From a virus, in IMG/VR virus record IMGVR_UViG_3300021090_000949, positions 1-58,641 of that record: 58,641 nt of DNA, one strand, 5' to 3'. Positions 23,199 to 58,641 of the stretch are shown here, one piece after another (position 1 is the stretch's first letter; each line of letters starts with the position of its first letter). Under the pieces are notes generated by a model. That model ran no database searches. It saw only the letters and a program-made list of their open reading frames with translations, and had not been told where the DNA came from. The translations under genes and the position numbers were made by a program.

Positions 23199-23996
23199 TT
23201 ATTGTTTCGAACCGTGTGATTTGTGCGTCTTGACCAAGCGGCCGTTAAGGATCACACTCCCTTGAACTACATTTCCGGCAGTGGCAGTGCGTGGCCCATC
23301 ATATAGAATATTGCCGTTGACCACGATCGTCGATGCAACTCCGGCTTTCGCGGCGTAATCCCACTTGGCGTATATATCGCCATTGACGACGACGGTATCG
23401 TTGTGATTGACCGCGTAAATGGCCACGCCGCCGACGCCCGCGTTGCATCCATAATAGCCCGAATCTCCCTTGGCAGTGCAATTGGCGGTGATCACGCCAT
23501 GCGCATAGGCGGATATTTCGACAGCCGATGATTGGCGACCGACCACGCTGGTAGCGGTTAGGTCTAAAGTGCCATTCCAAAAGACCCCGATCTGGTCACC
23601 CTCGATCGAGTCTGCGACGATCGTTACGCGAGATTGCGGGTTGAGAATCTCTACCGCTCCGCCTTCGAAGCAATTCGTTACGTTGCCGTAAGGGTCATAT
23701 GAATAGATAGTCGGGTTCTTGAGATGCCGCACCAAAAGCGTACAGACCACCGCTTGATTATTGTCTGTCACAGCCGGGCCGCCATCGGAATTGATCACGT
23801 CAACGCCGCTCAGATCGAGATAGCCGCTGGTGAGAATATACGGGCCATTGATCGTCGTCTCCGCCGCTGTGCTCTCTATCTTAGGAGCGGACAGATACAT
23901 TGAATGGTTGCCCGATGCAAGGGCCGCAGAGCTGCTCCCCAACAGCACACAGATCAGAATCAGTGCAACCGCTGTCTTGGATATCAATTGAGTCAT
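23199..23996 (-). CDS. Secreted beta-helix-like protein
   Basis: A 265-residue protein. The signal peptide (ALILICVLLGSSSAALASG) has a probable cleavage near residue 28. The rest is short repeating beta-strands rich in Asn, Gly, Val (HNDTVVVNGDIYAKWDY; STIVVNGNILYDG), as in right-handed beta-helices. Export signals are unexpected for a virion protein. It lies downstream of the late operon terminator, probably as its own unit with the OMP-like gene, and might alter the lysogen's surface. Function unknown. Confidence 0.65.
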   Translation of the reverse strand: MTQLISKTAVALILICVLLGSSSAALASGNHSMYLSAPKIESTAAETTINGPYILTSGYLDLSGVDVINSDGGPAVTDNNQAVVCTLLVRHLKNPTIYSYDPYGNVTNCFEGGAVEILNPQSRVTIVADSIEGDQIGVFWNGTLDLTATSVVGRQSSAVEISAYAHGVITANCTAKGDSGYYGCNAGVGGVAIYAVNHNDTVVVNGDIYAKWDYAAKAGVASTIVVNGNILYDGPRTATAGNVVQGSVILNGRLVKTHKSHGSKQ

Positions 23997-24082: not shown

Positions 24083-24613
24083 TTAGATCCTCAGAAAAAA
24101 GCCGCCCCCCGCGTGCCAGCCTTCAATGTAATTGTCCGACCCGATCTTGTATTTGCCGTATCCCCACAAGCCCCAGGCGCGAGCACCTGTCTTGGCCATG
24201 TTGTAAGCTGCGAGGCCTCCGGCAGCTGCCGCAAGGTAATCCGTAATGCTGCCATCGGTTTGCTGTTGGTCGAAATTAGGCCCAAAGAGTAATCCCAGCG
24301 TCAGACGCGGCGTGAGTATCTCGTCCTTCAACACAAGTTCGAAAGATACGTTGCCGATCTGGCGAGCTTCAGTTGTGCCCGCACTTGAGAATATATCAGT
24401 ATACCACAGCGACGAGAGCGGCCCGATATCGACATCGAGCACAAACGGCACTATCTCGACTTTGTCGAAGAGCACACCGGCTGATACCGCGACCGCCTGA
24501 TCATAGCGAACGCCGACAAATCCGAAGCCCTGCGAGAGGTCGGATTGTGCGAGGGTCGGTAGCGCCGTTACCAAGACGAGCAGCATCACCAATAGGGTTA
24601 GCGATTGTTTCAT
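24083..24613 (-). CDS. Outer-membrane-barrel-like protein with signal peptide
   Basis: A 176-residue protein. Signal peptide LVMLLVLVTALPTLAQ, then alternating hydrophobic strands (GFVGVRYDQAVAVSAGVLF; RLTLGLLFGPNF) and an aromatic end (WHAGGGFFLRI), like small outer-membrane beta-barrels. Such phage genes can change host surface receptors or exclude other phages. Coded after the late terminator, with its own ribosome site (GGAAAGGA). An exported periplasmic protein is the alternative. Confidence 0.6.
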   Translation of the reverse strand: MKQSLTLLVMLLVLVTALPTLAQSDLSQGFGFVGVRYDQAVAVSAGVLFDKVEIVPFVLDVDIGPLSSLWYTDIFSSAGTTEARQIGNVSFELVLKDEILTPRLTLGLLFGPNFDQQQTDGSITDYLAAAAGGLAAYNMAKTGARAWGLWGYGKYKIGSDNYIEGWHAGGGFFLRI

Positions 24614-28473: not shown

Positions 28474-31400
28474 ACAGTAGCTTCCTGGCCGAAGCCACGC
28501 CCGACGATGGATGAGATTTGATAGATGACGACCGTCACCGGGTTTCCAGGGGTGAGGCTATCCTCGGTCTGCTGAGCCGCGGTATATGAGGCAGACGCCG
28601 ATGACAGACCGGTAATGGTCCGGAGCACCGCACCTCCGGGCGCGGTGAGTACGTCCGCCTCATAGGCCTCGACTGATTCTCCTAATGGAACGTCGATTGC
28701 ATCCGCCCATTCACCGGCGACCCGTGTGCGGCGAATCCAAGTGATTGTCAGGTTATTACTGCCGTCCCGACTCCCCTCGATATGCACCGGCGAGAGTGGT
28801 TTCATATTGCGGAGTTCGCAGGTGAACGCCTGTTGTAGTCCGCTGTCAAAAGCGGTGCCAAGCGTTACCGCCCGGTAGAAAAGCTCTATATTCTGATCAG
28901 AAACTCCGAGCTGGGCGAAGTGGATCTTCGACGCATCGAGAACGGCGAATCGATCTCCGATCGAATGCCCATCGGTGGCATATTCTGTCCCTTTTCGTCC
29001 GCGCAGAAGTCGCGATAGTGTGAACGAACCATCCGCTTCGGCCACAACGTTTTGCCACTGTATGATTTCGTTCGCTATGATCCCAACGTTTGCGCCGTTG
29101 AGGACCTCTGCTTCGGTAGCTGAGGTCAGGGTGTCAGTTGTATCTGACAAAAAGACCCTGAGCGAGTTCCCCTCGTCCCAGACGTTCGGATCAGCAACGT
29201 CGGCCAGTGCGTTGGTAGATGCTCCGATCGTCCCATCATTCACCACGCGTACGAGAATAGTCCAACTGGAACCGTCGATCGATCTGAAAACGGTGGCACC
29301 GCGCCAGTTGGTGGTGACGCCGGTGGCCGCCAGATAGACACCCGGGGTATCGGTCGAATCAGATAACAACGGGCAATCGATGAGTTCATACGCAGTCGGC
29401 CCCTGCCAGTCAATGCCACCCGGCTGATCAGGAAGAATAACTCCGAGGGCATTGGACGAATAGGCCGCCACGTCGTCATCCACGCAGGAGAGTTGCAATA
29501 CGCCGCCGGCATTCTTGATCTGGACGATGCGCAGCCGGTGCTCTGTGCCTGCCGCAGTGACGGTGATGATATCAGTGGGATCGAGCTTGATCTGCTTGCG
29601 ACCAACTGCGATCTCTGAGGCACTGCGTGCAGTCCAGGCGAGTTTCAGATGCTTCTCCGCGAGCTGGGCCGCCTCTGCAGCATCCATCACCAGAGGTAAT
29701 CGGATCGTCACTACCAGATCGGTATCCACGGCTTGGCGGCTGGCGCGTTGGATGCCAACTCTATATGTTGAAGCCGAAGAATTGGTTGACCAGTCAGTGC
29801 CATCAAACACGAAGTAACTCAGTCGATCTTCCGCGAAGATCCTCCAGCCCTCGAGCGGCGTCACGAATTCCCAGCCCCCGGCCGTCCAATAGGCCAGTTC
29901 ATCATCATGGCCGATCCAGGCGCCTGAACCAATGGTGGTTTGGCCTATCACATAGACGTCACCGATGGTTGGCGATATGGGCGGCTCCGCCAGGCCGAAT
30001 TCGACTACCCGCTCATTGATCAACAGCGCGTCCATGTATTCGATCTCGACGATACGCGGGACCTCCCAGAGTTCAGTTCGCGTCTTAGTCAGCGTTTGCG
30101 GTCGTGCACTGTTTTGCTGGTGCGCTCCCAGGTCGACCTCCGCGATCGCGGCAACGGACGAGCCGAGCCTCTTCGGGAACTTGATCTTGCCATCGGATTC
30201 GCACGCATCGAAGAGATAAGCGGCCATCAGCGCTTCGATCGCTGCCCGGCCGGACATCCGGTTATCGATACAAAACCCTTTAACGGTATCAGTCAGCTCG
30301 GTCACCTCGATATCACCTTCCGCCAACCCGAGTTGTCCACAGATATCCGTTACCACGTCGGAGAGCGGCACGCCATTGCCCACCAGGCGATCAAGATAGA
30401 CACGGACGAAGCCGCCTGACGGTGAAACCGCATTGGAACCATACCAATAGCTATGCATCACACTGTCATAGAAGCCGCCCGCGGTCTTGGTGAGCGGGAG
30501 CGTATAGGTTGCCGCAATCGATTGGGAGGCGAGATCGATCTTATAGAGCGAGGTCTGTTTGCCGATCCAGAGACTCCCATCCACGGGGCCTCGCTTGAAA
30601 TCCGACACAGCCCGGTTGCCCACAACACCGGCGATAGTCGCGATATGTGCCATGGTATCTGCATCGAAGAAGGCGAGGTCCTCGGTCGACGTGCTGCCGA
30701 CCATCACCTGATTGGTGATCGGGTCGAAGCAAATGCGATCGCCGTCCTGGATGTAGGCCGTGATATCAAATTCTTCCGGAGTCGTGCCGTCGAACAGCAC
30801 CACGTAGGTTGTTCCGGCACTATCCCCGCTTGAGCAGATCACATAGGCGGTCGGCCGAGTGTAATCGAACCTTCCCTGGGGTCGGGCAGAGATCATATGG
30901 CCATCCGCCGGCAAGGCATAACTGAGGATCGGGTCGTGGCGATAATCGGTGAACCAATAGAAGGTTGAGGCGCCGCCTATGGATAAAGCAAAGAGGACTC
31001 TGGGAGCGTCCGGTGCAGTAGTGATCTGGCGACCGCCATAGGTAACCTGCTGTAGTCCCTGCACTATCTCTTCCCCGGCATCGGCGATCAGGAAGCTCTG
31101 CGCGATCAAGCGTCGAATCGAATAGGTGTTGAATTCTACACCCGGTGCCGCGATATAGAGGTTGAAGTTCCTGTCGAAATCCCAACCACCATTCACCGAA
31201 CCGACATCATCATTGTCGACCTGCAACTGAATGGTCCCGGTTCGGAGATCAATCCGTGTCCACAAGCCCGAGGTATGCAGGACGGCGTAGAGCTGGCTGA
31301 TTGGATCCACCCTAAAGTCGTCCTGGTTTAGTGCCGCAAATGAGAGATCAGGGAGCTCGTCGTATGGTTGACTCGGCGTTGCATTGGTCGTGATTTCGAA

Positions 31401-32024
31401 TGTCAGATTGGGGATCCGATTGCCGAATTCGCCCAGAGGCAAATCATTGAAAACAATGTACGCCAATCCGCGATAGCCGGGTACGTTGCCTATTCCCTCG
31501 AAATGCTCCATCGTCGGATCGGCCGTCTGAGTTTCGTCACCGAGGTAGAGCCTATACGAGAGTCCAGGAATCCGTACGACATCGTGATTCGTCGTGGAAT
31601 TGTCAAAGATCAGCTTGGTATCTGCCCAGATGCGCAGGATCCCATCGATGGGCCCCTGGCATAATCCGACTGCGAGGGTGCCATAATAGGCGAACTCGGT
31701 TATCTCGGTATCGGGACCAAAGCAACCGCCTGAGATCTCATCGGTGAGGCGCTGTTCGCGCAGCGGCCGCGACCAGATGACGTTGCCGGCGAGTCGCATT
31801 GTCCCGTAAAGCCGTTGAATCGGAGTCCCATACGACGAGACCTGAACGAGCAGACTGTCCAGTCGCGGTCCCTGTTGCCGAATAGTATCCGGTCCGAGCC
31901 CGAGCACGTTGTAATCGATCCAGCGTCCGGCCGTCAACGCGGCCATCGATGCAAGCCCCTGAATGATAGGACCGAATGGTGCGGTCAGGACAAAAGCAGC
32001 TGCACCGAGAACTGGACCGGCCAT
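28470..32024 (-). CDS. Tail tip/host specificity protein (gpJ/GTA-like)
   Basis: A 1184-residue protein; start at 32024 (GGAGGCG upstream, ATGA overlap with the peptidase gene). N-terminal hydrophobic segment GPIIQGLASMAALTAG then the tip pattern GTPIQRLYGTMRLAGNVIWS. A central part with kelch/propeller-like repeats precedes a phage-tail_3-type domain. Around residues 690-760 lies a DUF2793-like insert (GDVYVIGQ, WEFVTPLEGWRIF). The C-terminal FN3-like region is typical of baseplate hubs. It forms the tail tip that receives DNA-injection signals. Confidence 0.85.
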   Translation of the reverse strand: MAGPVLGAAAFVLTAPFGPIIQGLASMAALTAGRWIDYNVLGLGPDTIRQQGPRLDSLLVQVSSYGTPIQRLYGTMRLAGNVIWSRPLREQRLTDEISGGCFGPDTEITEFAYYGTLAVGLCQGPIDGILRIWADTKLIFDNSTTNHDVVRIPGLSYRLYLGDETQTADPTMEHFEGIGNVPGYRGLAYIVFNDLPLGEFGNRIPNLTFEITTNATPSQPYDELPDLSFAALNQDDFRVDPISQLYAVLHTSGLWTRIDLRTGTIQLQVDNDDVGSVNGGWDFDRNFNLYIAAPGVEFNTYSIRRLIAQSFLIADAGEEIVQGLQQVTYGGRQITTAPDAPRVLFALSIGGASTFYWFTDYRHDPILSYALPADGHMISARPQGRFDYTRPTAYVICSSGDSAGTTYVVLFDGTTPEEFDITAYIQDGDRICFDPITNQVMVGSTSTEDLAFFDADTMAHIATIAGVVGNRAVSDFKRGPVDGSLWIGKQTSLYKIDLASQSIAATYTLPLTKTAGGFYDSVMHSYWYGSNAVSPSGGFVRVYLDRLVGNGVPLSDVVTDICGQLGLAEGDIEVTELTDTVKGFCIDNRMSGRAAIEALMAAYLFDACESDGKIKFPKRLGSSVAAIAEVDLGAHQQNSARPQTLTKTRTELWEVPRIVEIEYMDALLINERVVEFGLAEPPISPTIGDVYVIGQTTIGSGAWIGHDDELAYWTAGGWEFVTPLEGWRIFAEDRLSYFVFDGTDWSTNSSASTYRVGIQRASRQAVDTDLVVTIRLPLVMDAAEAAQLAEKHLKLAWTARSASEIAVGRKQIKLDPTDIITVTAAGTEHRLRIVQIKNAGGVLQLSCVDDDVAAYSSNALGVILPDQPGGIDWQGPTAYELIDCPLLSDSTDTPGVYLAATGVTTNWRGATVFRSIDGSSWTILVRVVNDGTIGASTNALADVADPNVWDEGNSLRVFLSDTTDTLTSATEAEVLNGANVGIIANEIIQWQNVVAEADGSFTLSRLLRGRKGTEYATDGHSIGDRFAVLDASKIHFAQLGVSDQNIELFYRAVTLGTAFDSGLQQAFTCELRNMKPLSPVHIEGSRDGSNNLTITWIRRTRVAGEWADAIDVPLGESVEAYEADVLTAPGGAVLRTITGLSSASASYTAAQQTEDSLTPGNPVTVVIYQISSIVGRGFGQEATV

Positions 32025-32434
32025 CAGGACGCCTCCAGGCAATGCAGGCGATAGAGTCCGACCCAGTATGGTTTGACATCTGGATGATTCAGAGGCTGCT
32101 CCACGACCCGCTTTGCATGCGCCAGACTATGAATCACGGTCCCCTCACCGGTCAACACGCCAATATGATTCGACTCGCCGCGATAGTTGAGCACAGCGAT
32201 GTCGCCGGACTGAGCTTCGGAGAATTCTATCCGGCGTCCATTCGCTCGGAGCTGACTGAGCACAGAATCGCTTGATACCTGTTTGCCATATGGCTCCACT
32301 CGGAGCGATACCCCAAGGGTGGCCAGCGACAAAACAACGACGCCGACACAATCGATTCCTTTCCGGTTGCGTCCCTGATACCGGAACCGTACGCCCAACC
32401 AACTACGAACCTCTGCGACAAACCGAGTTCTCAT
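32024..32434 (-). CDS. NlpC/P60 tail assembly peptidase
   Basis: A 136-residue protein with the catalytic cysteine in RKGIDCVG (Cys29) and His90 in GESNHIGVL, the NlpC/P60 scheme. In gene-transfer-agent-like and lambda-like tails this protein sits at the tip and may cut peptidoglycan during entry. Position between DUF2163 and the tip protein is canonical. Confidence 0.9.
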   Translation of the reverse strand: MRTRFVAEVRSWLGVRFRYQGRNRKGIDCVGVVVLSLATLGVSLRVEPYGKQVSSDSVLSQLRANGRRIEFSEAQSGDIAVLNYRGESNHIGVLTGEGTVIHSLAHAKRVVEQPLNHPDVKPYWVGLYRLHCLEAS

Positions 32435-46306: not shown

Positions 46307-47929
46307 TTATTTCTTCTCCGCTGCCGCCACGGCGGGCACTTCGGTTGGAATGTCAGGCACGCTGTACGCGCCAAAATTGTCCTGCGAGGTCGGCGCACTG
46401 CCCACCTGACCGGTGTAGTCAGCCACGGTTTCGGCCTTGATGCCGATCGAGCCCGCCAGCTTACCCAGCTCGGTCAGATCCTTCAGCTTCAATTCCTCCT
46501 TGGTGAACAGGCAGCCCTGATTGGCGACGATCTTCTCGATCAACCCATCTTTGGCCTGCTGTTCACGGGTCATCATCCCGCGCACGACATCGCTCACCTC
46601 CTTCGGGGCGGTAGCGAGAAACTGCTCCATTGTCTGTGGCTTAGGTGCCTCCGCTATAGGAGCGGGAGCTGCCGGTGCAGCGGCAACAGGCGCTGCCGCA
46701 ACGGTGGTCGGAGCCACAGCCGCAGGCGGTTTGAGGCGTTCGGCCCATTCATTGAGCTTGCACTCGGTCAGGCCCATCAACATCGGTCGATCTTCTTCCT
46801 TGAAAGGGGTCCGGTCGCACGCGATGAGATCCTTGATCAGATCCTCTTTGGTCTTCATCACACTCTCCTGGTGAATGGTTACATTTGCGGTCGTGGAAGC
46901 GACCGGGACATATTCTGTTTTTTCGACGACCTCAATGGGGCCATCAGCCACGACAACCTTATTGGTAGTTGCGTCGACGCTGAAGCCGCGCTTATACATG
47001 CTCGTGCTGGTCGTACTGCCCGTCATGTTATTGCGCCGCGAGGTGCGGTAAATGAAATAGTCGTCGTAGACTTCCTTGAGATAGTTATAGAACTCAGTCG
47101 AATCGAGGCTGTTGACGAAATCCCAGAGTTGCTGGGATACCTCGTCATGCGACAATTCGTTCGCGACGATCCACAGCGCCTTATCGTCGAGGCTCATGAG
47201 GAAAGCGCGATCCTCTTCGGTGAAATCATTTCCCTTATCCGAGAACAAGGCGTTGATTCGGGTTTCTTTAGTGTCGGGGCTTTTCGCTCCGAGCATCGCG
47301 CGCAGGAAACTCCATTTTCTTGGCATAGGCATAGCTGGCTCCTTGGAAATTGGTAGAATGATCTTCTGATTAGCTCGCACACCGCACCCATCCTCCCATG
47401 AGCAGGCGCCTGAGGCTCCGGGCAGCAACGCAAGATGATCGAAACGGATATTGGTGACCACCTCGTCATAGGTTTCGCCATTCCAGACGCCGGTGGTTGC
47501 GGTCGCATCGCCCATGATCCCGAGTGAAACGTCGATCTGTTCGCCATTCTGCAACATCTCGATGAGACGCTGGGGTGCGCGGGCAGCATCTATCCACGCC
47601 TCGCCACGCAAGCGCTGGTTTTCGGCGCTGACATTGGAAACGCGGCCGATGATAAATGATTCCCCCTCAGGACTGTTGGCCGGCACGAGTTCCGTTGCGT
47701 TCATCGGGTGGTAAAGCGTTGTCGCCTGCCCCGAGAGCGTGTCTGCACCCGCGCTAATTTCTGCAAACGAATAGAAACTCCGCGGTCCCGGCTGACCGGG
47801 TGCAATGATCCCCTGGTGTACTCCCTCGACCATGCCCACAAAAGGCACGACAAAATGGCGGCGGCCGTCGAGCGTTTCTTCACGCACAATGGCACCGCCA
47901 AGACGACAAGCGATATATTTGAGGCTCAT
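46307..47929 (-). CDS. Capsid maturation protease fused to scaffold
   Basis: A 540-residue protein. N-terminal protease domain of DUF2213 type: ITRxx-like start, LYHPMNATELVPANSPEGE (His ~74), IDVSLGIMGD (Ser ~133) and HLALLPGASGAC. The C-terminal half is a helical scaffold with a Pro/Ala-rich linker (about 420-450). The protease cuts scaffold and capsid during maturation. Fusion of both roles is seen in several siphoviruses. Confidence 0.82.
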   Translation of the reverse strand: MSLKYIACRLGGAIVREETLDGRRHFVVPFVGMVEGVHQGIIAPGQPGPRSFYSFAEISAGADTLSGQATTLYHPMNATELVPANSPEGESFIIGRVSNVSAENQRLRGEAWIDAARAPQRLIEMLQNGEQIDVSLGIMGDATATTGVWNGETYDEVVTNIRFDHLALLPGASGACSWEDGCGVRANQKIILPISKEPAMPMPRKWSFLRAMLGAKSPDTKETRINALFSDKGNDFTEEDRAFLMSLDDKALWIVANELSHDEVSQQLWDFVNSLDSTEFYNYLKEVYDDYFIYRTSRRNNMTGSTTSTSMYKRGFSVDATTNKVVVADGPIEVVEKTEYVPVASTTANVTIHQESVMKTKEDLIKDLIACDRTPFKEEDRPMLMGLTECKLNEWAERLKPPAAVAPTTVAAAPVAAAPAAPAPIAEAPKPQTMEQFLATAPKEVSDVVRGMMTREQQAKDGLIEKIVANQGCLFTKEELKLKDLTELGKLAGSIGIKAETVADYTGQVGSAPTSQDNFGAYSVPDIPTEVPAVAAAEKK

Positions 47930-48897
47930 GCGACCCTCCGGTGACTGTGCAGGGGGCGAACGTTATCCGTAATGCGATTGCGCGCGATATACGGCTTAGC
48001 GGCGCAGCGGCACTGCGGATGAACGGGGATCATTGACTCTATTTCATCGAGGCTGAAGACCTTCCCCTGAAGCGCTTCACATTCAGGACATACCCTGTCA
48101 TCACCGGCCGTGCTAAATTCCGCCTGCACCTCGACGGTCATTGCGGCATCAGCGCGACGTAATTCGTTGATATTTGCCAGATGATGCGCCCGAATTACTT
48201 CAGTCCGGGCGATCATGCGCGCTCGGTTCAGCCCGATCTTGTCGAGCCCTGACGCGATATCTTTGACCATCTCACGCGCCATCGTGAGCGGCGATTTCCC
48301 TTCCGCGATCCCGCGCGTCAGATTGGTGGTCAGTCCGTCGATCAGTTTGCGCCGGGCATCCGCGTTGACGACTTCCATTACCGTCTTGAGATCTTCGAAC
48401 GTGCGGGTATAGAGCACACCGACGCGGTCAGCGTGCACCGGGAGATTAAAGGCGGTGACGACCATACTTCGGCCAGGCAACGATCCCTGAAGCGGCAGTT
48501 CAAACTGTGCCCGTTCCAACTCTGTCTGCGCGCGTCCGATACCGAGCCGATAGGCAGATTGAATGTAGACATCAGTCCAACCGACGTTGATGGCGGTGTT
48601 GGTCCCGGGACGCAAGACGACTTGAAGGATGCCTGCCTCTTCCTGTTCTTTAAGCCAGAGCAGGAAGGCCTGTACTTTCGCGGCGGTGTCGCGTTCGAAC
48701 GCAAACTCGCGCGGCCGAGCTGCTGCCAGCGAACGCATCAAGGGCACCTCAATTGGCTGGATCCCAAAGCAATCGTTGTCGACGATCGAGAGCCGGATCA
48801 ACCGTAGCAACTCACGGAGGCGCTTCGCCATATCGCCTTCGAAGCGACGACGGAGACCGGAGGTCCGACTGGGATCAAGCTGACTGGGTGTCGGCAT
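47926..48897 (-). CDS. Mu F-like minor head protein
   Basis: A 323-residue protein. The C-terminal third has MARTEVIRAHHLA-like ARMIARTEVIRAHHLANINE and a four-cysteine/His zinc-like pattern CPECEALQGKVFSLDE...HPQCRC, both typical of Mu F/SPP1 gp7 head morphogenesis proteins that sit with the portal. It is separated from the portal gene by the exported-protein block. Confidence 0.87.
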   Translation of the reverse strand: MPTPSQLDPSRTSGLRRRFEGDMAKRLRELLRLIRLSIVDNDCFGIQPIEVPLMRSLAAARPREFAFERDTAAKVQAFLLWLKEQEEAGILQVVLRPGTNTAINVGWTDVYIQSAYRLGIGRAQTELERAQFELPLQGSLPGRSMVVTAFNLPVHADRVGVLYTRTFEDLKTVMEVVNADARRKLIDGLTTNLTRGIAEGKSPLTMAREMVKDIASGLDKIGLNRARMIARTEVIRAHHLANINELRRADAAMTVEVQAEFSTAGDDRVCPECEALQGKVFSLDEIESMIPVHPQCRCAAKPYIARNRITDNVRPLHSHRRVA

Positions 48898-51653
48898 TAT
48901 CTATTCTTCCACCTTGGAAGGTTCTGGTAATAGACCACCGAGTCACTGACCGGGACCCGGAATTTCTGAACTTCCACGATCTTATCATTAAATCGATTCT
49001 TGATTGTCGCGCGATAGCAGCTGCTATCGTTGGTGAAGAGTTGGTTGGGATACAGATTGACCAATGCCAGCCCGTTTGCGTCTCCCCGGAACCGCATCTG
49101 CTCGAAACTGGCTGCGATCAGCGAATTGTTGATCCTTAGCAGTGAGTCAGGATGCGCGGCGAGCAGTTCGACGGTAACCGCCAGAGAGTCATTGGCTGTG
49201 CCATCCGGTTTCTTTAGCAAGAAGGCGACGGTCGAGGTAAGGGTGTCCGAGTCAACCACAATTGCGGCGCAGAATCGCATGGTGTCGACCCCCACACCGG
49301 AGACGGTGAAGGAATCTGTCTCCGGCAGATAGCGAGGATCGGCATGCAGCCTGACCCAGTTCCCCGCGTTGAGTCCAAGTGCAGCTCGTCCAAGATTGTC
49401 GGTGGTCACCATATATGGATCAGCCGACTGCGCTTGGTTGTTGAAATAGATCGCCATTTGTGGGACAACCTCGTCAGGCGCGGCGGACGTGTCGATCACG
49501 ACAATCGTTCTTGTGTAGCCCAAAGAATCGCCGCAACTGGAGCCCCCTCCCCCACCAGCTCCAATGCGGGAGTAGTAGTAGGCCATCTTACTGGGATCTC
49601 CCAGGTTGTCCTGGTGGCCAACGGTATCTGCGTCATGCATTCGGTTCGTGATATTCGCGGCGAGTGCACCGGTATCACTCGGCGTGAGCGGAACAACTCC
49701 ATCGACATTGACGACTTCCGCGTGGATCAGATTGATGCTGTCGCGAATTGCCAGGAGGCGCGCAATTAACGTATCCACTTCCGGTCTCAGCCAGACCTCT
49801 CCCCCGGATCCGCCTTCAACCGCGAGACGCAGGAAAGCAACCAACGTGGTATCATTATCCAGCGTCTGATCGAGCGTGTCTTTGATCTCCGTATATTCTC
49901 CCGGTGCGAGCTGGGCGGTCGTGCGCCCCGTGCTCGCGGTGATGGCGAGATCCGAGAAGTTCGTAGGGAAAGACTGTGACAACGAGTAGCCCGACTTATC
50001 AGCGTTCGAAGCGACCGTCACTCGTCCTGAACCGTCGATCGAGAAGAGGCTAAAGTTTGTAGGGAAGGTGGGCGGACTCCAGCCGTTGAGATTACCAACC
50101 TCCGCATGAACCAGATTCATACTATCGCGCAGAGCGAGGAGCCTTGCGATCAGGGTGTCGACCTCCGGGCGCAACCAGACTTCGTCGGCAACGCCACCGG
50201 CAGCCGCCAATCTCAGAAGCTGCAGAACGGTGCTATCGTTATCGAGGGCCTCATTGATTGTATCTTTGATCTCTGTATACTCACCAGCTTCCAAGGATGC
50301 AGTGTACCCGGTCTTATCGTTATTCGTGCCGACCGTCACATCAGCAACTTTCCGCTGTGCTATGGTAGTTGAGTCGCCACCTGAACCGGTGGCGATGCCC
50401 CAAACAGTTCGTTTGACCACACGAGCGACCACACCGGAATCAGCTCCAGTCGATGCTCCAGTCTGGCTATAATAATAGGGCATCTTGGTTGGATCGCTGA
50501 TCTCAGCCTGGTGCCCTACCGTATCTTCTTCCGCGACCTGGAAAGCAGCTGTATCACCAATCGTAGTAGCCACACCGGGACCGAGACTCCCGACTGCGAC
50601 ATAACCAGTACTGGCAGTAATTGACAGATCAGAGAAATTAGTCGGGAAGGTTTGAGTTAAGGAGTAGCCTGTCTTGTCCGCATTGGTACCCACAGTCACA
50701 CGGCCGGTTGATGCCGTGATCGCTAAGTCTCCAAAATTGGCAGGGAAGTTTTGGACGAGCGAATATCCAGTTTTATCGGCATTCGTCCCGACTGTTACCC
50801 TGCCGGTTCCGGCCGTAATTGAGAGGTCAGCAAAATTGGTCGGGAAGGTTGGAGGAGTCCAACCATTCGTGTTGACCACCTCGGCATGGACCAAGTTGAC
50901 GGAATCCCTCATCGCGAGGACCCGGTTAATGATCGAATCTCGCTGTGCGGCAGTCCATACCTCGCTGCCGGCTGATATTGTAGAGAGAATGGCGCGAAGA
51001 TAAGCAACGAGCGTCGTGTCATTATCCAGCGCTGAGTTGAACGCGCCCATACGAACCAACACGGAGTCAGTTGCGGCCGCGAAGGTTGATCGAGTCGAGA
51101 TCGCGGCATCGAGGTTCGGAGCTTCAGATGCGTTGATTGCACTGGCTGCGATCTTGTTCGCGGTGATCGCGTCGTCCTGAAGCGTGACTCCGGTGGTCAC
51201 CGAATTGACTGAGCCACTGACATTTCCGGCAACGGAGCCAACCGATCCCACCACATTGCCGCCGACATTGCCGGTCACCGAACCGACTGAGCCCGAGAGA
51301 TTCCCGGTAATATTGCCGGTCATGCTGAACGTTTGTGCCGACGCGAGGACCTGGTTATTTCGAGTGACCGCAGAAGCATGATTAGTGAACGTGTCATTCG
51401 TTGCGTTCGTCCACATGAACTCAAGGTCCCAGTTGTACAGGTCGTCGAGGGTGAGGATCGTATCCTTGTAGCCGAGAGCTGAGATATCGACATCCACTGA
51501 GTCTATCAGGGTCGTATATTCCCGCACCCACCTTATCCGAACATCGGTATAGTCCGTAGACTGGAGATGAATTCGTTTGTCGAAGGTTGCAGCATCGAGG
51601 AACGATTGGCCTAAAGCCAAAACCATCAATGCACATACGATCAACTTCTTCAT
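48897..51653 (-). CDS. Exported repeat-rich fibre-like protein
   Basis: A 918-residue protein; start at 51653 (GAGGAGA upstream). Signal peptide MKKLIVCALMVLALGQSFLD with probable cleavage near 21-24. Then GNxxGNxSGSVGSVTGN-type short repeats, several copies of a unit around NFxDLxITAxTGRVTVGTNA with KTGYSL, and three copies of a helical unit (EVWLRPEVDTLIARLLALRD ... NLVHAEV). The C-terminal part is Ig-like. Composition is fibre-like, but the signal peptide is unusual for a virion component. Confidence 0.75.
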   Translation of the reverse strand: MKKLIVCALMVLALGQSFLDAATFDKRIHLQSTDYTDVRIRWVREYTTLIDSVDVDISALGYKDTILTLDDLYNWDLEFMWTNATNDTFTNHASAVTRNNQVLASAQTFSMTGNITGNLSGSVGSVTGNVGGNVVGSVGSVAGNVSGSVNSVTTGVTLQDDAITANKIAASAINASEAPNLDAAISTRSTFAAATDSVLVRMGAFNSALDNDTTLVAYLRAILSTISAGSEVWTAAQRDSIINRVLAMRDSVNLVHAEVVNTNGWTPPTFPTNFADLSITAGTGRVTVGTNADKTGYSLVQNFPANFGDLAITASTGRVTVGTNADKTGYSLTQTFPTNFSDLSITASTGYVAVGSLGPGVATTIGDTAAFQVAEEDTVGHQAEISDPTKMPYYYSQTGASTGADSGVVARVVKRTVWGIATGSGGDSTTIAQRKVADVTVGTNNDKTGYTASLEAGEYTEIKDTINEALDNDSTVLQLLRLAAAGGVADEVWLRPEVDTLIARLLALRDSMNLVHAEVGNLNGWSPPTFPTNFSLFSIDGSGRVTVASNADKSGYSLSQSFPTNFSDLAITASTGRTTAQLAPGEYTEIKDTLDQTLDNDTTLVAFLRLAVEGGSGGEVWLRPEVDTLIARLLAIRDSINLIHAEVVNVDGVVPLTPSDTGALAANITNRMHDADTVGHQDNLGDPSKMAYYYSRIGAGGGGGSSCGDSLGYTRTIVVIDTSAAPDEVVPQMAIYFNNQAQSADPYMVTTDNLGRAALGLNAGNWVRLHADPRYLPETDSFTVSGVGVDTMRFCAAIVVDSDTLTSTVAFLLKKPDGTANDSLAVTVELLAAHPDSLLRINNSLIAASFEQMRFRGDANGLALVNLYPNQLFTNDSSCYRATIKNRFNDKIVEVQKFRVPVSDSVVYYQNLPRWKNR

Positions 51654-51654
51654 C

Positions 51655-52434
51655 TTAATATCTCCTCGAGGCTTTATCCGCCTTTTGCCGGAATCCAGCT
51701 TGATCGGCCTGATATAGAGAATTGGGCAGCGACGACACGACAGGAGTCGAATCGGCAATGGCGACGCCTATAGCAAGTGCATCATCACTGGACTGTGTCC
51801 ACCCCATCGTTACATCTACAGTAGAAATTATATCATAGTAATAGACACCCATAGTCTGAGATGTAAAATCGAACGCATAAGCCGATGTCCAATTAGCTAA
51901 CGGGGTATTGCTTGATGGAGCATTTTCTCCGGAATGAAAGGCTTCGGCACAAAACGATGATACTCCACCAAGTGCCAAAGTTGCACTCAGGCTTGTGCCA
52001 CCAGTCGTAGTAATCGTAATATCGATGTCTTGTACTTTTGTTAGACTCGTAGTACCTGTTACTGTTATAGCAGTAGCCGTTTTAACCGAAGTATTTGTTA
52101 CGGTCACTACGACTGATTGAGTATTGGCAGGAACTCCAGCACCAAGAAAATATGCGTAAACAGTTCCAGGTTCACCGGTAGCACGGGCAAACGGCGAACC
52201 GGTTACCTCTGTCATGTTTACTCCGCCGTAGGTAACACCAGAAACCTCGTCTGTGGCTCCGACATTTTGTACGATAAAGACAATGACTCCTTTTGGTGAA
52301 GCTCCTGCGGTATGATTCCAAGTCAAATTACCAGTCCCCGGAGTTCCATGCGATGTTAAGGCATCGAAAGCCACAGCATAGGTCATGCTACAGGAGCCTA
52401 ACAACAATATGAGTATCAGTTTAATCAAATTCAT
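51655..52434 (-). CDS. Putative exported lipoprotein, beta-rich
   Basis: A 259-residue protein; start at 52434 by ATGA overlap. Signal LIKLILILLLGSCSMTYAVA with a relaxed lipobox (LGSC). The body is beta-strand-rich Thr/Val (VVVTVTNTSVKTATAITVTG; DIDITITTTGGTSLSA). The gene is clearly more AT-rich than its neighbours, suggesting recent transfer. It resembles surface-adhesin-type domains; exact family unknown. Confidence 0.65.
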   Translation of the reverse strand: MNLIKLILILLLGSCSMTYAVAFDALTSHGTPGTGNLTWNHTAGASPKGVIVFIVQNVGATDEVSGVTYGGVNMTEVTGSPFARATGEPGTVYAYFLGAGVPANTQSVVVTVTNTSVKTATAITVTGTTSLTKVQDIDITITTTGGTSLSATLALGGVSSFCAEAFHSGENAPSSNTPLANWTSAYAFDFTSQTMGVYYYDIISTVDVTMGWTQSSDDALAIGVAIADSTPVVSSLPNSLYQADQAGFRQKADKASRRY

Positions 52435-55400
52435 CAGTATGCTTTCGGCTTTCCAATGAGCCACGCCTTTGCGATGTAGACCTTGCCAGCCGCGTTCGCG
52501 TTGAAATTAGTTCGGAACCGGGCCACCCAACTGGAACCAGCCAGCTTGAAATCCCGATCCATTGGATAGGCGACATAGGCCCAGCTCGTCGAAGTGAGAG
52601 CGACATCCACCGATCTGATCGAGTCAGCTGCAAAGGCAGCGTCGCCGGAAGGATGAATGAAGAATAGGCTGTCGATAGTTGTTCCTGTGCCTGAGACTTT
52701 GTAGAGGATGCCGACAGAGTCCGCGTCGAACGTGCAGTCGACCGATCCTCCGACCTCGAAGGAATCATTGAGCGCGGTCGAAACATCGCTCGATGCATTC
52801 ATCACCATCCACCGCTCAGCTGTTCCATTGAACCGACCGAAGTGAAGCTCCAGGGAGTCCGTCGCAGCCGGGAGGGTAGACCTCGCATAGACGTCCGTCG
52901 CCGGAAGCCTCGTCAATCGGTGCTGGATATCCGACCATGAGATCGCTGAAGCTGCGATGTTGGTCGAGTCGATCACATCTGCGGCGACGGTGAGTGAGGT
53001 CGCTCCAGTCACTTCGCCTGTGTGAGTGACGTTGTACTTATTGGTAGCACCTTCGGTCAGGTCATCGGTGGAAACCTGATTGGCTCCTGTGCCGAAATCT
53101 ATGTGCGTGTCGTCGATGCCATCGGCTTTGACTTCAAGCTGACCTGAAGCCGTCGTGTCTATTGAATTGTTATCGAAATCGGCGAGGCCGAAGAACCTGG
53201 CGGCGATGTACGCTCTCACCGCAGCGGAATCTACCACAAACCGCATCACATCATAATCGGTCGAGTCTTCTCGCTGGATATCGAGCCAGGCGCCCTCCTT
53301 TATCTTAAGGAGATTATTAAGGATCGAGTAATATGTCGAGCCGTCGAAGATCGAGAGCGAATCTTGCGTCCCTGAACCAGCACCATCGTCCGTATTTGGC
53401 GCCCATGCAGTACCACTCCATTCTAATACTTGACCAGTACTGGCACCAGATTGCGCGATTATGCCAGGCTCCATTTTATCGTTGTCCGTCGCGTCACCCG
53501 CCAGTTGATCCGGGTCAAGATCGGTAGCGCAGGAGTCGTTTGCCCAGCCGAGAGAATCCGGCGTCGGAGTGGTTTGGAGTTTCTGTATTTGGCCGTTTGT
53601 TCCTGTAGTGGTAGGGAGACTGTAGTTTGTGAACGTGATCTTTCCTGTCGTGGAGACGGTGAATCTGTCGGCGACACCTGATCGACGAAGCACGAAATCA
53701 TCAGTCGTGGCGTTGTGCTTGATCTGCCATTGCCCTGCTCCAACTTCCTGAAAGAAGATAGATGGATCGCCGGATGTCGCATCGAGGACGATATTGGCCG
53801 AAGCGCGTTCGATTTCAAGTGGGCCTGCCGGAGTCGTGATTGCCGCTCCGATGCCGACGTTATTGTGGAATATCACTTGACCGATGAGTCGGCTCGTCCC
53901 GGCTACGTAGAGCGAATCATTAATCGCCAGAGTATCTGTCTTATTGAACTTGACAATGTCAGCCGTTGACCCGCTTATACCCGCCGTGACATTCGGCGCC
54001 AGATAATTCTCGATGATCAAGTTCTTCGACGATGAAGTCAAAAGGAGACCATAAGCCTGCGTACTGTTCGGGCTGGAGCATACGTTGCCGCGTACGTCAT
54101 TATGCAAGCAACTGTTCAAAGCAATTCCAGCGAATGTACCAGAAGTAAGAGAGTCGTTATTGACGCAAACATTGCCGCTGATCGTCGAGAAGTCAGTTGA
54201 GAGAAGATAGATGCCGTTCTGCTCCGCCTTCTGAATGGTGTTGTTGGCGATCGTGATGTACTCGCCTCCTGATGCGCCTTCCGAGTAGATGCCGTGACCA
54301 TTGGTCTGGGATACGACGTTGCCGGTCACTGAACTGTAATGAGAACTCTCGAGGTGAATGCCATAGCCATTGGCACCGTAGACCTTGTTGCCGGTCACGG
54401 TGCAAAAGTCGCCCGCGACTCTGATAGCAGTCGTATCGCAGGCATAAACCAGGTTATCGGATATCACGTAATGATCCCCAGATGCAGCATTGATCGCATT
54501 GTCGGTCTGGTCGTAAAAACTGTTCCCGGTTATCGTGATGTTCTGCGACTGGACGCTGACGGATGAAGTATAAACTCCGCGCCCGGCGCACTCGACAAAG
54601 CTATTGCCTGAGACGGTCGTATTGTAGCCCTCTTGCAAGTGCACCGTCGTCTGGTTGCATCTCAAAAACAGATTGTCAGAAATGATGATATTCCTGAGCG
54701 TGTCGCCGCCCTCAATGTTGACGTCGATCGCGGCTCCACCGGCAGTGATCACATTACCATAGATCGTGACCTCTGAGGCTTTGCATAAAACTCCGGATGG
54801 AATTAACCCGCCGAATAGGTAGCCGATTGGCTGTCCGGCGATCTTGTTATTGCTGATGATGATTCGGCGAGTCGTGAGCCCACTGGCCGTTATCCCTTCT
54901 TCCCCGTTCGCCCACAAGGTATTCCCGGATATCTCAACATCCGTAGAACCATTACGGACGGCGATCGCATCCTTGTCTGCTCCCGCGATGAAACATCCCC
55001 TTATCGTCGACTTGGATATATTCTTGAACGAGACGACATCAGCGGAATCCGGTTCTGAGTAACTGGCATAAGCCTTGCCGCCATCCAGGGAGAGGTTTTC
55101 GATAACGATCCCCGTATTGCCGGCTGTCGTGTCTGCGTTCTCGATCATCGTCCGAGTAACGGCTCCGGACATCTTGAGCGTCGCCCCTTCGCCGCTTCCG
55201 ATGATGCTGGTATGTGAAGGAAGATAGAGAGTGGCATCGATCAGATAGACTGAGTTACTCAACGGGACGAATACCACTCCACCTGAATCAGGGAGCGCGT
55301 CGATAGCAGCTTGAATCGCTGCTCGGTCATTCGTCGTGCCGTCGCCTTTGGCGCCGAAATCGCGGACGTTCTTCCATTGCTTGTTTTTCACGTAGGCCGG

Positions 55401-55478
55401 GACCGACACCGGCGAATCCTGTGCCAGTGCGGGCAGCGCCCAGATGATCAGCAACAAACCGAAGAGGATGCGTTTCAT
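52434..55478 (-). CDS. Exported beta-helix tailspike-like protein
   Basis: A 1014-residue protein. Signal peptide LFGLLLIIWALPALAQ, then the pectate-lyase/tailspike head VRDFGAKGDGTTNDRAAIQA, a long parallel beta-helix (repeats such as NxISGNxxxxN and YVISDN) to about residue 520, then fibre-type segments (DDTHIDFGTGANQVSTDDL, HTGEVTGATSLTV) and a C-terminal beta domain. Tailspikes of this shape cut or bind host glycans. A Sec signal on such a protein is odd, because tailspikes are assembled in the cytoplasm. Confidence 0.8.
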   Translation of the reverse strand: MKRILFGLLLIIWALPALAQDSPVSVPAYVKNKQWKNVRDFGAKGDGTTNDRAAIQAAIDALPDSGGVVFVPLSNSVYLIDATLYLPSHTSIIGSGEGATLKMSGAVTRTMIENADTTAGNTGIVIENLSLDGGKAYASYSEPDSADVVSFKNISKSTIRGCFIAGADKDAIAVRNGSTDVEISGNTLWANGEEGITASGLTTRRIIISNNKIAGQPIGYLFGGLIPSGVLCKASEVTIYGNVITAGGAAIDVNIEGGDTLRNIIISDNLFLRCNQTTVHLQEGYNTTVSGNSFVECAGRGVYTSSVSVQSQNITITGNSFYDQTDNAINAASGDHYVISDNLVYACDTTAIRVAGDFCTVTGNKVYGANGYGIHLESSHYSSVTGNVVSQTNGHGIYSEGASGGEYITIANNTIQKAEQNGIYLLSTDFSTISGNVCVNNDSLTSGTFAGIALNSCLHNDVRGNVCSSPNSTQAYGLLLTSSSKNLIIENYLAPNVTAGISGSTADIVKFNKTDTLAINDSLYVAGTSRLIGQVIFHNNVGIGAAITTPAGPLEIERASANIVLDATSGDPSIFFQEVGAGQWQIKHNATTDDFVLRRSGVADRFTVSTTGKITFTNYSLPTTTGTNGQIQKLQTTPTPDSLGWANDSCATDLDPDQLAGDATDNDKMEPGIIAQSGASTGQVLEWSGTAWAPNTDDGAGSGTQDSLSIFDGSTYYSILNNLLKIKEGAWLDIQREDSTDYDVMRFVVDSAAVRAYIAARFFGLADFDNNSIDTTASGQLEVKADGIDDTHIDFGTGANQVSTDDLTEGATNKYNVTHTGEVTGATSLTVAADVIDSTNIAASAISWSDIQHRLTRLPATDVYARSTLPAATDSLELHFGRFNGTAERWMVMNASSDVSTALNDSFEVGGSVDCTFDADSVGILYKVSGTGTTIDSLFFIHPSGDAAFAADSIRSVDVALTSTSWAYVAYPMDRDFKLAGSSWVARFRTNFNANAAGKVYIAKAWLIGKPKAY

Positions 55479-55494
55479 GGTTCTATCACGTCTC

Positions 55495-55932
55495 TTAGAA
55501 AGTCACGTTGAAATCGTTCACCTTGTTCGGCTTCAACGTGTCCGGGATGATGAACGACTTGATGTTCGAGATATCCGACCAGTTTGGCGTTTCGTCGGCA
55601 GTCTTGATTGCCGAGTAGTAGGTCACACCCGTCAGCAGCGACAGTCCCTTGGTGACTGATTCAGGGGAACCGGCGACCTTAGGCGCAGGCAACCCGGTGA
55701 CAGGTTTGCAGGCCGACCAGAAGCTGGTCAGACTGTCCGAGGTACGGGCATAACGAATGTCGTAAGCAGATGCCTGACCGATCATCCCGTCATCGCCAGG
55801 CGCGGTCCAACTGAAGGTCACATTGACCGTGACCGTTTGTGAATGGGTTTTGTCGCATCCGATCAGCATCAACTGCAATAGGGCGAGTAACATCGCCAGC
55901 ATGGTCAGTCTAAACATCTTTGTTCGGGTCAT
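55495..55932 (-). CDS. FN3-domain lipoprotein
   Basis: A 145-residue protein from the ATG at 55932 (GGAGG 6 nt upstream; longer frames overlap the portal). Signal LTMLAMLLALLQLMLIGC with a clear lipobox (LIGC), then one fibronectin type III domain (VTFSWTAPGDDGMIGQASAY ... SDISNIKS). It would be lipid-anchored on the periplasmic or outer side. Start overlaps the portal end by 23 nt. Confidence 0.78.
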   Translation of the reverse strand: MTRTKMFRLTMLAMLLALLQLMLIGCDKTHSQTVTVNVTFSWTAPGDDGMIGQASAYDIRYARTSDSLTSFWSACKPVTGLPAPKVAGSPESVTKGLSLLTGVTYYSAIKTADETPNWSDISNIKSFIIPDTLKPNKVNDFNVTF

Positions 55933-57301
55933 CGCCATCCTCCGGGTTTGGGAGATCCTCGGGTGGGAGCTCCTGCAGTTGTGTGGATAGTTTTTCCATG
56001 ATCCCCTTGATTTCTTCTGGGGTACACCCCAGCCAGCCAAGGAACTTCTCGATCGGGATGACCGTATCGCCGCCACTATTGAGGAAGGTCGCGGTTGCTT
56101 CGGCTCGCGTCTTCGCAACGTCAGCCTTCTCTTTGTCAGATGGCGAGAGTAGATCATCCCACTTCACATTGTATTGGGCAGCCTGTTTTCGCTTGAGGAT
56201 GCCCACCTCGACCAGGCGATCAAAGAATGGGCGAATGATACTTGGCTCGCAAAACTGCTCGCGCCGGCTCTTGATCTGGCGGAACCACCGGACGAGGTCC
56301 ATAGTCGAGGCAAGCTCGCCGAGTTCTGAGCCCAACAGCACGCGCTTGGGGATCCGCTTGCCCGCTGCGACCATGTCCAGCTGCATCGAGAAGTGATTAA
56401 TCGGGTCAGAGATCTGTTGGACCAGCTCTTTCGCTTCGACCCCCTGCAACAGCAGGAATTTCTTCATGCGGTGGACCAGGTCGAGGATCTTCTCTTCGTA
56501 TTTTGCCTTGACGTCGTCCCCGATCGTGAAGGTCTTGTCCAAATTGAAGACCATACCGGGATCGGCCAGGCGCCAGAATGCTTCCGCGTCCGCACCGACC
56601 AGTTTTTCGATATCATAAAGGCGATTGAAGATCACCTCCAGCTGCGGCGTCCCCTCCACCGGATTGGTCAGACATTCCTGAGCCACATGGATAACTCTGG
56701 TGTAATGAACATCTGTCGGTGTCACTTTATCGCCGACGCCTATCGATAAGGAATAAAGAACGGGCAAGCCATACCGAGGACTCTGAGGACTCGTGTCGGT
56801 CGACTTGATAGTGATCGACCCCTCACCGTATGGTGTGGCGTACAGTAGGTCAGACGACGTCGTTGCCGGCTGAGTCAGGCTGGTCGAGCTATCCTTGAAT
56901 CCAAGGAGTAAGACCGCATACTTCCCGAGCGATGACAGGATATCCAGCCGTGAGAAGACCTGCTGCAATCGAAACTTGGTGACGATCTCAGTGGCCGCGC
57001 GCTCGAACACAGTGTCCTGTTCTGCGGACTCTTCGATGGTCGGGAACGTCTCCCAAGACGCGGCTACGGGAGCATTGATAACGCCCTTGGCTATCTCATT
57101 ACGCAGGTAGTATGACTGATAGTCGATGTAGGTCGGCTCCTTCTTGTAGCCGAGCGTTTTGGTCAGATCGCGCTGACCATCGTATTGCTTGCCCATCGCT
57201 TCGCCGATGCGTTGCCTCTCGAACAGGGTGCTCGACAGTCCGCGAAGTTCTGAGATGATCGCGGACGCTTGGGCCGCCGACATGGATGACTTGCCGCTCA
57301 T
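55910..57301 (-). CDS. Portal protein (DUF1073 type)
   Basis: A 463-residue protein: KTLGYKKEPTYIDYQSYYLR, ARxWxxFP-like VAASWETFPTIEES, and VLLGSELGELASTMDLVRWF match DUF1073-type portals. It forms the dodecameric ring through which DNA enters and leaves the head. The order terminase, small gene, portal is as usual. Confidence 0.87.
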   Translation of the reverse strand: MSGKSSMSAAQASAIISELRGLSSTLFERQRIGEAMGKQYDGQRDLTKTLGYKKEPTYIDYQSYYLRNEIAKGVINAPVAASWETFPTIEESAEQDTVFERAATEIVTKFRLQQVFSRLDILSSLGKYAVLLLGFKDSSTSLTQPATTSSDLLYATPYGEGSITIKSTDTSPQSPRYGLPVLYSLSIGVGDKVTPTDVHYTRVIHVAQECLTNPVEGTPQLEVIFNRLYDIEKLVGADAEAFWRLADPGMVFNLDKTFTIGDDVKAKYEEKILDLVHRMKKFLLLQGVEAKELVQQISDPINHFSMQLDMVAAGKRIPKRVLLGSELGELASTMDLVRWFRQIKSRREQFCEPSIIRPFFDRLVEVGILKRKQAAQYNVKWDDLLSPSDKEKADVAKTRAEATATFLNSGGDTVIPIEKFLGWLGCTPEEIKGIMEKLSTQLQELPPEDLPNPEDGDDPNKDV

Positions 57302-57537
57302 TCGCCGTTTTCTCCGAGGATCTCATTAACCCGATCTAAGGGCATGTGCTCTTTCTCGATGAGGTACCAGCGGGCGAAGTTGACGACTGCCCAAGTACGC
57401 CGTTCGAGGTTTCCGAGGTCTTTCACGAGTGACGATAACTTGTACTGCATCACGCCATAGGTGACGGCAAAGGTCAGAACCGGTAACCCGATCTGCATAA
57501 CGATACTCAAGTCTACCACCACTGGAATGCCCTCCAT
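57298..57537 (-). CDS. Small membrane protein between terminase and portal
   Basis: A 79-residue protein from the ATG at 57537. One hydrophobic span (about 9-31, SIVMQIGLPVLTFAVTYGVM), then a charged helical tail (LEKEHMPLDRVNEI-type). Coupled to the portal by overlap. A membrane protein here is unusual; it might be a lysis or assembly factor. Confidence 0.65.
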   Translation of the reverse strand: MEGIPVVVDLSIVMQIGLPVLTFAVTYGVMQYKLSSLVKDLGNLERRTWAVVNFARWYLIEKEHMPLDRVNEILGENGE

Positions 57538-57539
57538 AA

Positions 57540-58641
57540 TTATCCGAGGTAAAACTCTTTCGGGTTTGTGAGGCGCAAAAAGGCGCCCGACAATGCATCG
57601 ATCTGATCCGATTGACACTTGTCTGTACCGTCGTAATTTTCCGCCTCGCCGAGAAACTCTTCCACCCAGGGGCCGTCGACGAGCTTGATCAGTTGCGCCT
57701 CTGCAGCAGCGGATACCGGCTCAGCTCGTTTGCCTTTGGATTCATGCACGGGATTGGCGTAGGCGATGAATCCTTTCCCGATCAGCTTTCGAACGTGCAT
57801 CTGCGCTTCCATTACTCCCGCCTGGCCGGGATCCTGTTCGATGCCGATATGTACGGCGTTGCCATCTCCGCTCGCGGTGTTGTGGATCCGTGTTTCAACG
57901 GTGAGCGGGCTGCCCTGAAAACGCTCGACATGCATGAGGAAATATTCACCTTCAGCGGTCTTCCCCAGTTTGACGCCGGCGGTATGCGAAGAACCTTTCC
58001 TGGCCTGATCGGCCGCGGTGGCCGCTCTATCCCAGTAACGAACCACATTCGGACATCGGGGTGCGGTCTTGACGATCTGAAAGTATGACCGCTGGAAGAA
58101 GGTGCCGGCGTGATCGTGAACGTTCCAGTTGCCGCCCTTATCCTCGTGACCAAGCAAGCGCTCTCGTTCAACTTTACGCAGACTCTTGAGCTTGGCCATA
58201 TAGGACGGGTCAGCGGTCAGCAGGGCCGGATTGTCGATCGTGCGTGAGCGGATGAAGGTAAAGGATAGCGGGGAACAGTCGGTGCCGAACCGATCGATCA
58301 TCTCCTGGCGGGTGTTGCCCCATTCCAGCTTATTATTGAGATTGACAAACCATTGCAGCACGCCCGAGCGTTCGGGAATGGCATACCCATCAGGCGCGAT
58401 GTACCAATCGACCATCTCGCGCAACCAGCCCCCGACTTTGTTCTGGCGGGGCACGGGGTTACATGTCGCACACATTCGGGGCCGGACGCCCGAGGTTGAC
58501 CGGTTACGCGAGAGCATGTAGAAGAACTGGTCGCGCTCGAATGACTCGAGCTGATCAAAGCCGATCAACGCGATCTGGGATCCATCCCACTTGTAGCGAT
58601 CGGAGACCTGCTCCATGTGAGCGTATCTGACCGTGGCTCCC
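57540..58641 (-). CDS. terL: Large terminase subunit, 5' end outside window
   Basis: Open to the right edge (upstream in-frame residues GATVRYAHMEQ). Visible are the end of the ATPase (IALIGFDQLESFERDQ, CNPVPRQNK) and the whole nuclease domain with acidic residues in RYWDRAATAADQ, IEQDPGQAG and CQSDQIDALSGA. It cuts and pumps DNA into the prohead. The C-terminal TNPKEFYLG ends three bases before the next gene. Confidence 0.93.
   Translation of the reverse strand, partial: GATVRYAHMEQVSDRYKWDGSQIALIGFDQLESFERDQFFYMLSRNRSTSGVRPRMCATCNPVPRQNKVGGWLREMVDWYIAPDGYAIPERSGVLQWFVNLNNKLEWGNTRQEMIDRFGTDCSPLSFTFIRSRTIDNPALLTADPSYMAKLKSLRKVERERLLGHEDKGGNWNVHDHAGTFFQRSYFQIVKTAPRCPNVVRYWDRAATAADQARKGSSHTAGVKLGKTAEGEYFLMHVERFQGSPLTVETRIHNTASGDGNAVHIGIEQDPGQAGVMEAQMHVRKLIGKGFIAYANPVHESKGKRAEPVSAAAEAQLIKLVDGPWVEEFLGEAENYDGTDKCQSDQIDALSGAFLRLTNPKEFYLG

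Follow-up and report, generated by a model that had tools for sequence, protein, structure and literature searches.

Export signals on consecutive fibre- and spike-type genes in the head operon of a tailed phage, and a possible assembly in two compartments

The IMG/VR virus record IMGVR_UViG_3300021090_000949 is a linear stretch of 58,641 nucleotides (58.6 kb) from a siphophage, and this whole stretch is called the window here. A late operon at its right end, on the minus strand, codes for TerL, a small membrane protein, the portal protein, four proteins with export signals, MuF, a protease, a decoration protein and the major capsid protein (MCP). The four genes that concern us occupy positions 55932-48897 (minus strand) and encode, in order, an FN3 lipoprotein, a beta-helix protein, a protein called G3 and a fibre, flanked by the portal and MuF genes:

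55910..57301, minus strand: portal protein, left border of the slot (Pfam PF06381, E 1.8e-28; phrog_146, E 5e-60)
55495..55932, minus strand: FN3-like lipoprotein with lipobox LIGC, its start overlapping the portal stop (translation; homologues)
52434..55478, minus strand: signal peptide, beta-helix tailspike/pectate-lyase domain, T4-fibre-like shaft and C-terminal region (PF13229, PF12708, phrog_2234)
51655..52434, minus strand: G3, exported beta-rich protein of 259 amino acids (aa), with lipobox LGSC or an ordinary signal-peptidase site (translation)
48897..51653, minus strand: signal peptide and 918-aa repeat fibre with C-terminal beta modules (translation; weak repeat similarities)
47926..48897, minus strand: MuF head-morphogenesis protein, right border (PF04233, E 1.6e-17; 48-53% identical to its counterparts in the related loci L087 and L007)

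Counted from the stop of the portal gene to the start of MuF, the successive distances are -23, +16, -1, +1 and -1 nucleotides. This spacing leaves no room for promoters of its own in the block, and since the gene ends overlap or nearly touch the portal and MuF genes, the block is expected to be expressed together with the head genes. Judged by these distances (no promoter scan was run), it is not a separate transcription unit, as a moron would be; its signal-bearing products are of the exported or envelope type that morons encode. A preliminary description of this DNA had pointed to four consecutive exported-type genes between portal and MuF, which the translations, the signals and the spacing bear out. 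It had also called their location unexpected, and rightly so: the portal and MuF genes touch in most relatives and are adjacent in the isolated relatives Hardycor1 and HJTV-4.

Export signals were called by a home-made rule, not by a trained predictor such as SignalP; the rule demands a charged n-region, a hydrophobic core and a cleavage or lipobox motif. It gave false positives in 4 of 450 TerL, portal, MuF, protease, decoration and MCP proteins (0.9%), so that four signals in a row cannot be attributed to chance. The FN3 signal is MTRTKMFRLTMLAMLLALLQLMLIG, followed by CDK, with the lipobox LIGC, a feature shared with superinfection-exclusion lipoproteins of the Llp/Cor type. The beta-helix signal, MKRILFGLLLIIWALPALA, is followed by QDS, and the predicted cut between ALPALA and Q falls immediately upstream of the pectate-lyase domain. 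The fibre signal is MKKLIVCALMVLALGQSFLDA, followed by ATF and cut between LDA and A. These three signal types agree with those first proposed, but the lipoprotein label given to G3 is uncertain, because in its signal (MNLIKLILILLLGSCSMTYAVA, followed by FD) the LGSC lipobox is rivalled by an ordinary signal-peptidase site. The predicted mature N-termini of the block include QDSPVSVPAYVK and ATFDKR. A signal or lipobox is thus present on 4/4 proteins, where virion tailspikes and fibres would be expected to have none. Ribosome-binding sites precede the signal-bearing starts of the FN3 gene (GGAGG) and of the fibre gene (GGAG). Chance or miscalled starts could be discarded as a source of the signals, given these ribosome-binding sites, the low false-positive rate of the rule and the recurrence described below.

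In other respects the block has the architecture of virion tailspikes and fibres, namely a beta-helix and fibre repeats. The beta-helix protein matches PF13229 (E 1e-39), PF12708 (E 1e-16) and the tail spike families phrog_2234 (E 5e-29) and phrog_7458, and its shaft motif (aa 777-816) is found again in a fibre gene of the related locus L141. The 918-aa fibre carries GNV repeats and C-terminal beta modules, features that we take to be familiar from environmental phage fibres. Its repeats are weakly similar to an exported fibre of L013 and to a non-exported one of L180, and it has no match among isolated phages. For G3, no Pfam or PHROG family was found, and no homologue in phages, Zixibacteriota genomes or the related loci collected here. 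No relatives emerged when viral contigs were scanned one protein at a time, with patterns of the portal, fibre, G3 and beta-helix proteins that demand near-identical peptides. AlphaFold models of the fibre C-terminus and of the exported fibre of L137/L141 had a pLDDT of about 31.

With alignments of the portal protein and TerL, about 170 related loci were retrieved, some on viral and some on bacterial contigs. The window's own lineage, defined by a TerL at least 44% identical, comprises 16 independent loci and was compared with 105 more distant ones. Exported genes occupy the portal-MuF slot in 11/16 loci of this lineage versus 4/105 of the more distant loci (Fisher 4e-9), and so the search for the same block in related phages, which the preliminary description had called for, found that it recurs. 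The slot holds five exported proteins in L007, six in L137 and four in L141. The latter two phages, although divergent, share a partly matching exported set whose related pairs are colinear: first a Tat-like CxxC protein, then a fibre of 417/413 aa, and last an exported protein of 344/356 aa at 48% identity. The proteins at the head of these sets (L137:3967-4422 and L141:10894-11292) are related and cysteine-rich, with twin-arginine-like starts (MNRRSFL and MNRRNFL). In other members of the lineage the slot contains unsignalled virion-like genes or lysis genes; the unsignalled slot genes of L123, L130, L136 and L173 have in common a C-terminal repeat of the 'VPxEDR' type. We propose that the portal-MuF gap is a slot that this lineage loads with exported genes. 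Insertion by an unrelated mobile element was considered and rejected, as the contents of the slot differ from one gene to the next and phage-type genes are among them.

Secreted FN3 proteins that match the FN3 lipoprotein of the window occur in 100 of 133 genomes from the phylum Zixibacteriota, and this ties the phage to that uncultured group. A viral scan with an FN3 alignment yielded 21 contigs, and in several clear cases the FN3 gene bears a signal and lies in the late fibre/lysis region of phages of differing types. For instance, L270 has in order an FN3 lipoprotein, a CBM96/DNRLRE-type protein (E 2e-4, below the cut-off), an 834-aa fibre-like protein and a lysin-like gene, the DNRLRE-type and 834-aa proteins having hydrophobic N-terminal signals as judged by eye.

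A block of the same kind also stands at the normal fibre position of unrelated Zixibacteriota phages, so the set is not peculiar to the head module, as had been thought at first. The clearest instance is G003:C48, a podophage-like genome of about 42.3 kb whose portal, MCP and internal proteins differ from those of the window phage, and whose 139-bp terminal repeat indicates that it is (circularly) complete. Five exported genes with short overlaps lie at its podophage fibre position and are followed by a small lysin-like gene. They encode, in order, a DNRLRE lipoprotein, an FN3 lipoprotein, a beta-helix protein, a 282-aa protein and a 749-aa fibre. The first and third of these names express a resemblance seen by eye, and the FN3 name a direct match to the window protein. 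The order of FN3 and then beta-helix is common to both blocks. The rule, supplemented by inspection for the nozzle, found signals on these five proteins and also on the second adaptor, the nozzle-like protein and two more proteins, one of 132 aa and one of 272 aa, the latter encoded after the portal gene; the portal, scaffold, MCP, first adaptor and three internal proteins are unsignalled. There is no unsignalled fibre candidate in this complete genome. As in the window, an exported protein is encoded shortly 3' of the portal gene in unrelated phages (L235:6974-7510; G003:C48, 19775-20593).

The signals extend to core tail proteins. The SU10_adaptor domain (PF24175) was identified in G003:C48 (E 8e-14), G080:C42 (E 2e-13) and G071:C81 (E 9e-11), with 52.9, 51.6 and 43.1 bits, respectively, against a curated cut-off of 27, and in the three phages it begins right behind an N-terminal signal, which in G003 is of the lipoprotein type. 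A nozzle-like gene (phrog_511/3287) directly follows each signalled adaptor and has a signal-like segment too. The pair of G071 has textbook signals, with the adaptor cut after MKRIICVIIFILFPFVVNG and before T, and the nozzle after MIRIIIFLLFILASSVMG and before Q. This nozzle protein found no homologue when used as a query in viral contigs. Signals are absent from the control adaptors of Pseudomonadota and Bacteroidota (0/31) and from the genes that follow them (0/26). G003 and G080 possess a second SU10-type adaptor, unsignalled and located 5' of the signalled one, which could close heads in the cytoplasm. We see no obvious job for an adaptor or a nozzle off the virion.

Tailed-phage assembly is held to be wholly cytoplasmic. 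The reading that we tentatively favour, and to which we give nearly an even chance, is that distal parts of the virion are exported late and join the particles outside the cytoplasm. The virion-type fibre and spike proteins of a late cassette would leave through Sec before lysis, fold in the periplasm, with the FN3 lipoprotein anchored in the membrane, and be joined to the particles outside the cytoplasm, as the cell lyses or later. Heads, together with the tail tube in the window siphophage, would be built in the cytoplasm, and the distal, host-contacting parts in another compartment. In the window phage, the exported parts would be added onto a tail that already has its unsignalled tip genes. 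In Zixibacteriota tailed phages generally, it is possible, though we put it rather below even probability, that heads, internal proteins and the first adaptor are cytoplasmic, and that the second adaptor, nozzle, spikes and fibres are exported through Sec and joined outside. Attachment to particles in vitro is known for the tailspikes of P22 and for the tail fibres of T4, which makes a late addition outside the cell feasible. Late export of the distal parts, with attachment outside the cytoplasm, is the simplest reading that would account for the window block as well as for the signals of the adaptor and nozzle.

The genes, their signals, their place in the virion operon and their recurrence are observed; from them we infer virion membership, actual export, cleavage and the site of joining. 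Several points weigh against this two-compartment assembly. We know of no tailed phage that assembles in this way. The lipid-anchored FN3 protein and the Tat-like CxxC, deacetylase-domain and barrel-like proteins of the slot look like envelope proteins rather than virion parts. The slot is empty, with portal and MuF overlapping, in the close relatives L087 and L131. Unsignalled genes of tail-tip or fibre type are present in the window phage (a J-like gene at 28470-32042, and others at 27420-28208 and 26421-27416), so that it could do without the block. For the G080 adaptor and for the nozzles of G003 and G080, the signal is a judgement by eye and not a call of the rule. Only 3 of 9 PF24175 members over the cut-off in the Zixibacteriota search are signalled (one of them by eye); the six in G014, G068 and G054 have no signal, which makes the adaptor signal a trait of certain phages and not of the phylum. 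Cysteine density is about twice as high in the exported proteins, yet the counts are mostly odd, and a cysteine-parity test for periplasmic disulfides gave no sign of paired ones.

A serious rival, plausible without being probable, is that the fibre-like exported proteins are not virion parts and, made late, would coat the cell surface or be released at lysis to act on neighbours or debris. They might block or trim receptors, digest capsule or matrix, or prevent re-adsorption or superinfection. Consistent with this, the FN3 lipoprotein and the Tat-like CxxC and barrel-like proteins occupy the same slots, FN3 proteins repeatedly adjoin lysis genes, and genes that are holin- or lysozyme-like by sequence lie within the slot in L124, L125 and L141. 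Exported polysaccharide-deacetylase-type proteins occur there too, at L013:10265-14305 (by Pfam), fused to phage fibre repeats, and at L173:4686-6476 (by eye). The Lom protein of lambda is a known exported protein encoded beside fibre genes (PMC12309495). However, surface effectors of this kind would leave the signals of the SU10-type adaptor and the nozzle-like protein unexplained, and they fit poorly with a complete G003:C48 genome in which every fibre candidate is signalled and with a window block that has no promoter space of its own. The purely surface or kin-exclusion role suggested at first is therefore insufficient, although surface action of the fibre block itself has to be taken seriously.

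Lysogenic conversion, in which genes expressed from a prophage would alter adhesion, biofilm formation or exclusion at the host surface, appears improbable. In its favour, FN3 homologues are common as host secreted proteins, and L087, a close relative, resides as a prophage in a Candidatus Zixiibacteriota chromosome, with host heme genes on its flanks, the same core genes, and homologues of the window glycosyltransferase and tail genes. However, the prophage lacks the block, no integrase was recognised in the 58.6-kb record, and the genes are translationally packed in a late virion operon, where they overlap the neighbouring gene at either end, an arrangement that also argues against the mainly lysogenic surface system put forward in the preliminary description. 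L087 has an exported FN3 copy adjoining its lysin gene, as does L131. The TerL open reading frame of L087 (8131-9555) has a signal-like start, MKKCLILTAIFMILGAAMA, ahead of a normal ATPase domain, and an internal ATG (MADQREV) may be its true start. About as improbable is that the hydrophobic N-terminal segments are uncleaved anchors or host-gene relics that would serve particle assembly at the inner membrane rather than export. In favour of this, the FN3 genes are clearly host-type, and the long segments of the G003 and G080 nozzle-like proteins have no obvious cleavage site. Against it, the beta-helix protein and fibre of the window and the adaptor-nozzle pair of G071 have textbook signals that end in a cleavage motif immediately ahead of the first domain, and signals recur independently on many unrelated proteins.

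Other features of the window are the following:

57298-57618, minus strand: small membrane protein encoded between the TerL and portal genes and conserved in L007, L087, L123, L127 and L136
40173-44182, minus strand: cluster of glycosyltransferase-like and related genes between the MCP and tail genes, two with homologues at the same place in L087 (40% and 48%)
24083..24613, minus strand: further exported protein of 176 aa after the lysin, outer-membrane-barrel-like by eye (strong signal peptide)
23199..23996, minus strand: further exported protein of 265 aa, also after the lysin (strong signal peptide)
18415-19308, plus strand: transposase-like gene within the phage record, presumably of the IS1595 type

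If the two-compartment reading is true, cytoplasm-only assembly would be overturned for a set of phages; otherwise, the proteins would form a large fibre-like family that is exported by phages for action on cell surfaces. In either case, the signals on fibre, adaptor and nozzle-like proteins span several unrelated phages of one uncultured bacterial group and could serve as a sequence marker for phages of unculturable hosts. They also advise caution, because a signal peptide alone does not make a phage gene accessory. The suggestion that the set is undescribed holds in so far as no description of it, and no precedent for tailed phages with signal peptides on their fibres, adaptors or nozzles, was found in open-licence literature; precedent elsewhere is possible. 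Phage hypervariable proteins of diversity-generating retroelements (DGR) are said to lack signal peptides (PMC6199706).

The only kin known to us are single exported accessory proteins of the Lom type and the coat proteins of filamentous phages. The latter (M13 pIII and pVIII) are virion proteins with signal peptides, but filamentous phages are non-lytic, are extruded through the membrane and have neither heads nor tails, and no homology to them was seen. Lambda Lom and Bor, T5 Llp and Cor resemble the window proteins in their signal peptide or lipobox and in the position of their genes near fibre or lysis genes. However, they are single small envelope proteins, while the slot holds four to six consecutive fibre-like genes that are translationally packed between core head genes and whose products reach about 1350 aa. 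With P22/Sf6-type tailspikes and T4-like fibres the block shares the beta-helix, shaft repeats, C-terminal beta modules and a virion operon. Those proteins are produced and assembled in the cytoplasm and have no signal peptide, whereas each window protein starts with a Sec or lipoprotein signal, and the window spike differs from P22/Sf6-type tailspikes in having no separate virion-binding head domain ahead of the lyase fold. Finally, the three Zixibacteriota phages have the same domain as the podophage SU10_adaptor family, above the Pfam cut-off, but unlike 31/31 control members they carry an N-terminal signal on it, and the next, nozzle-like gene is signalled too.

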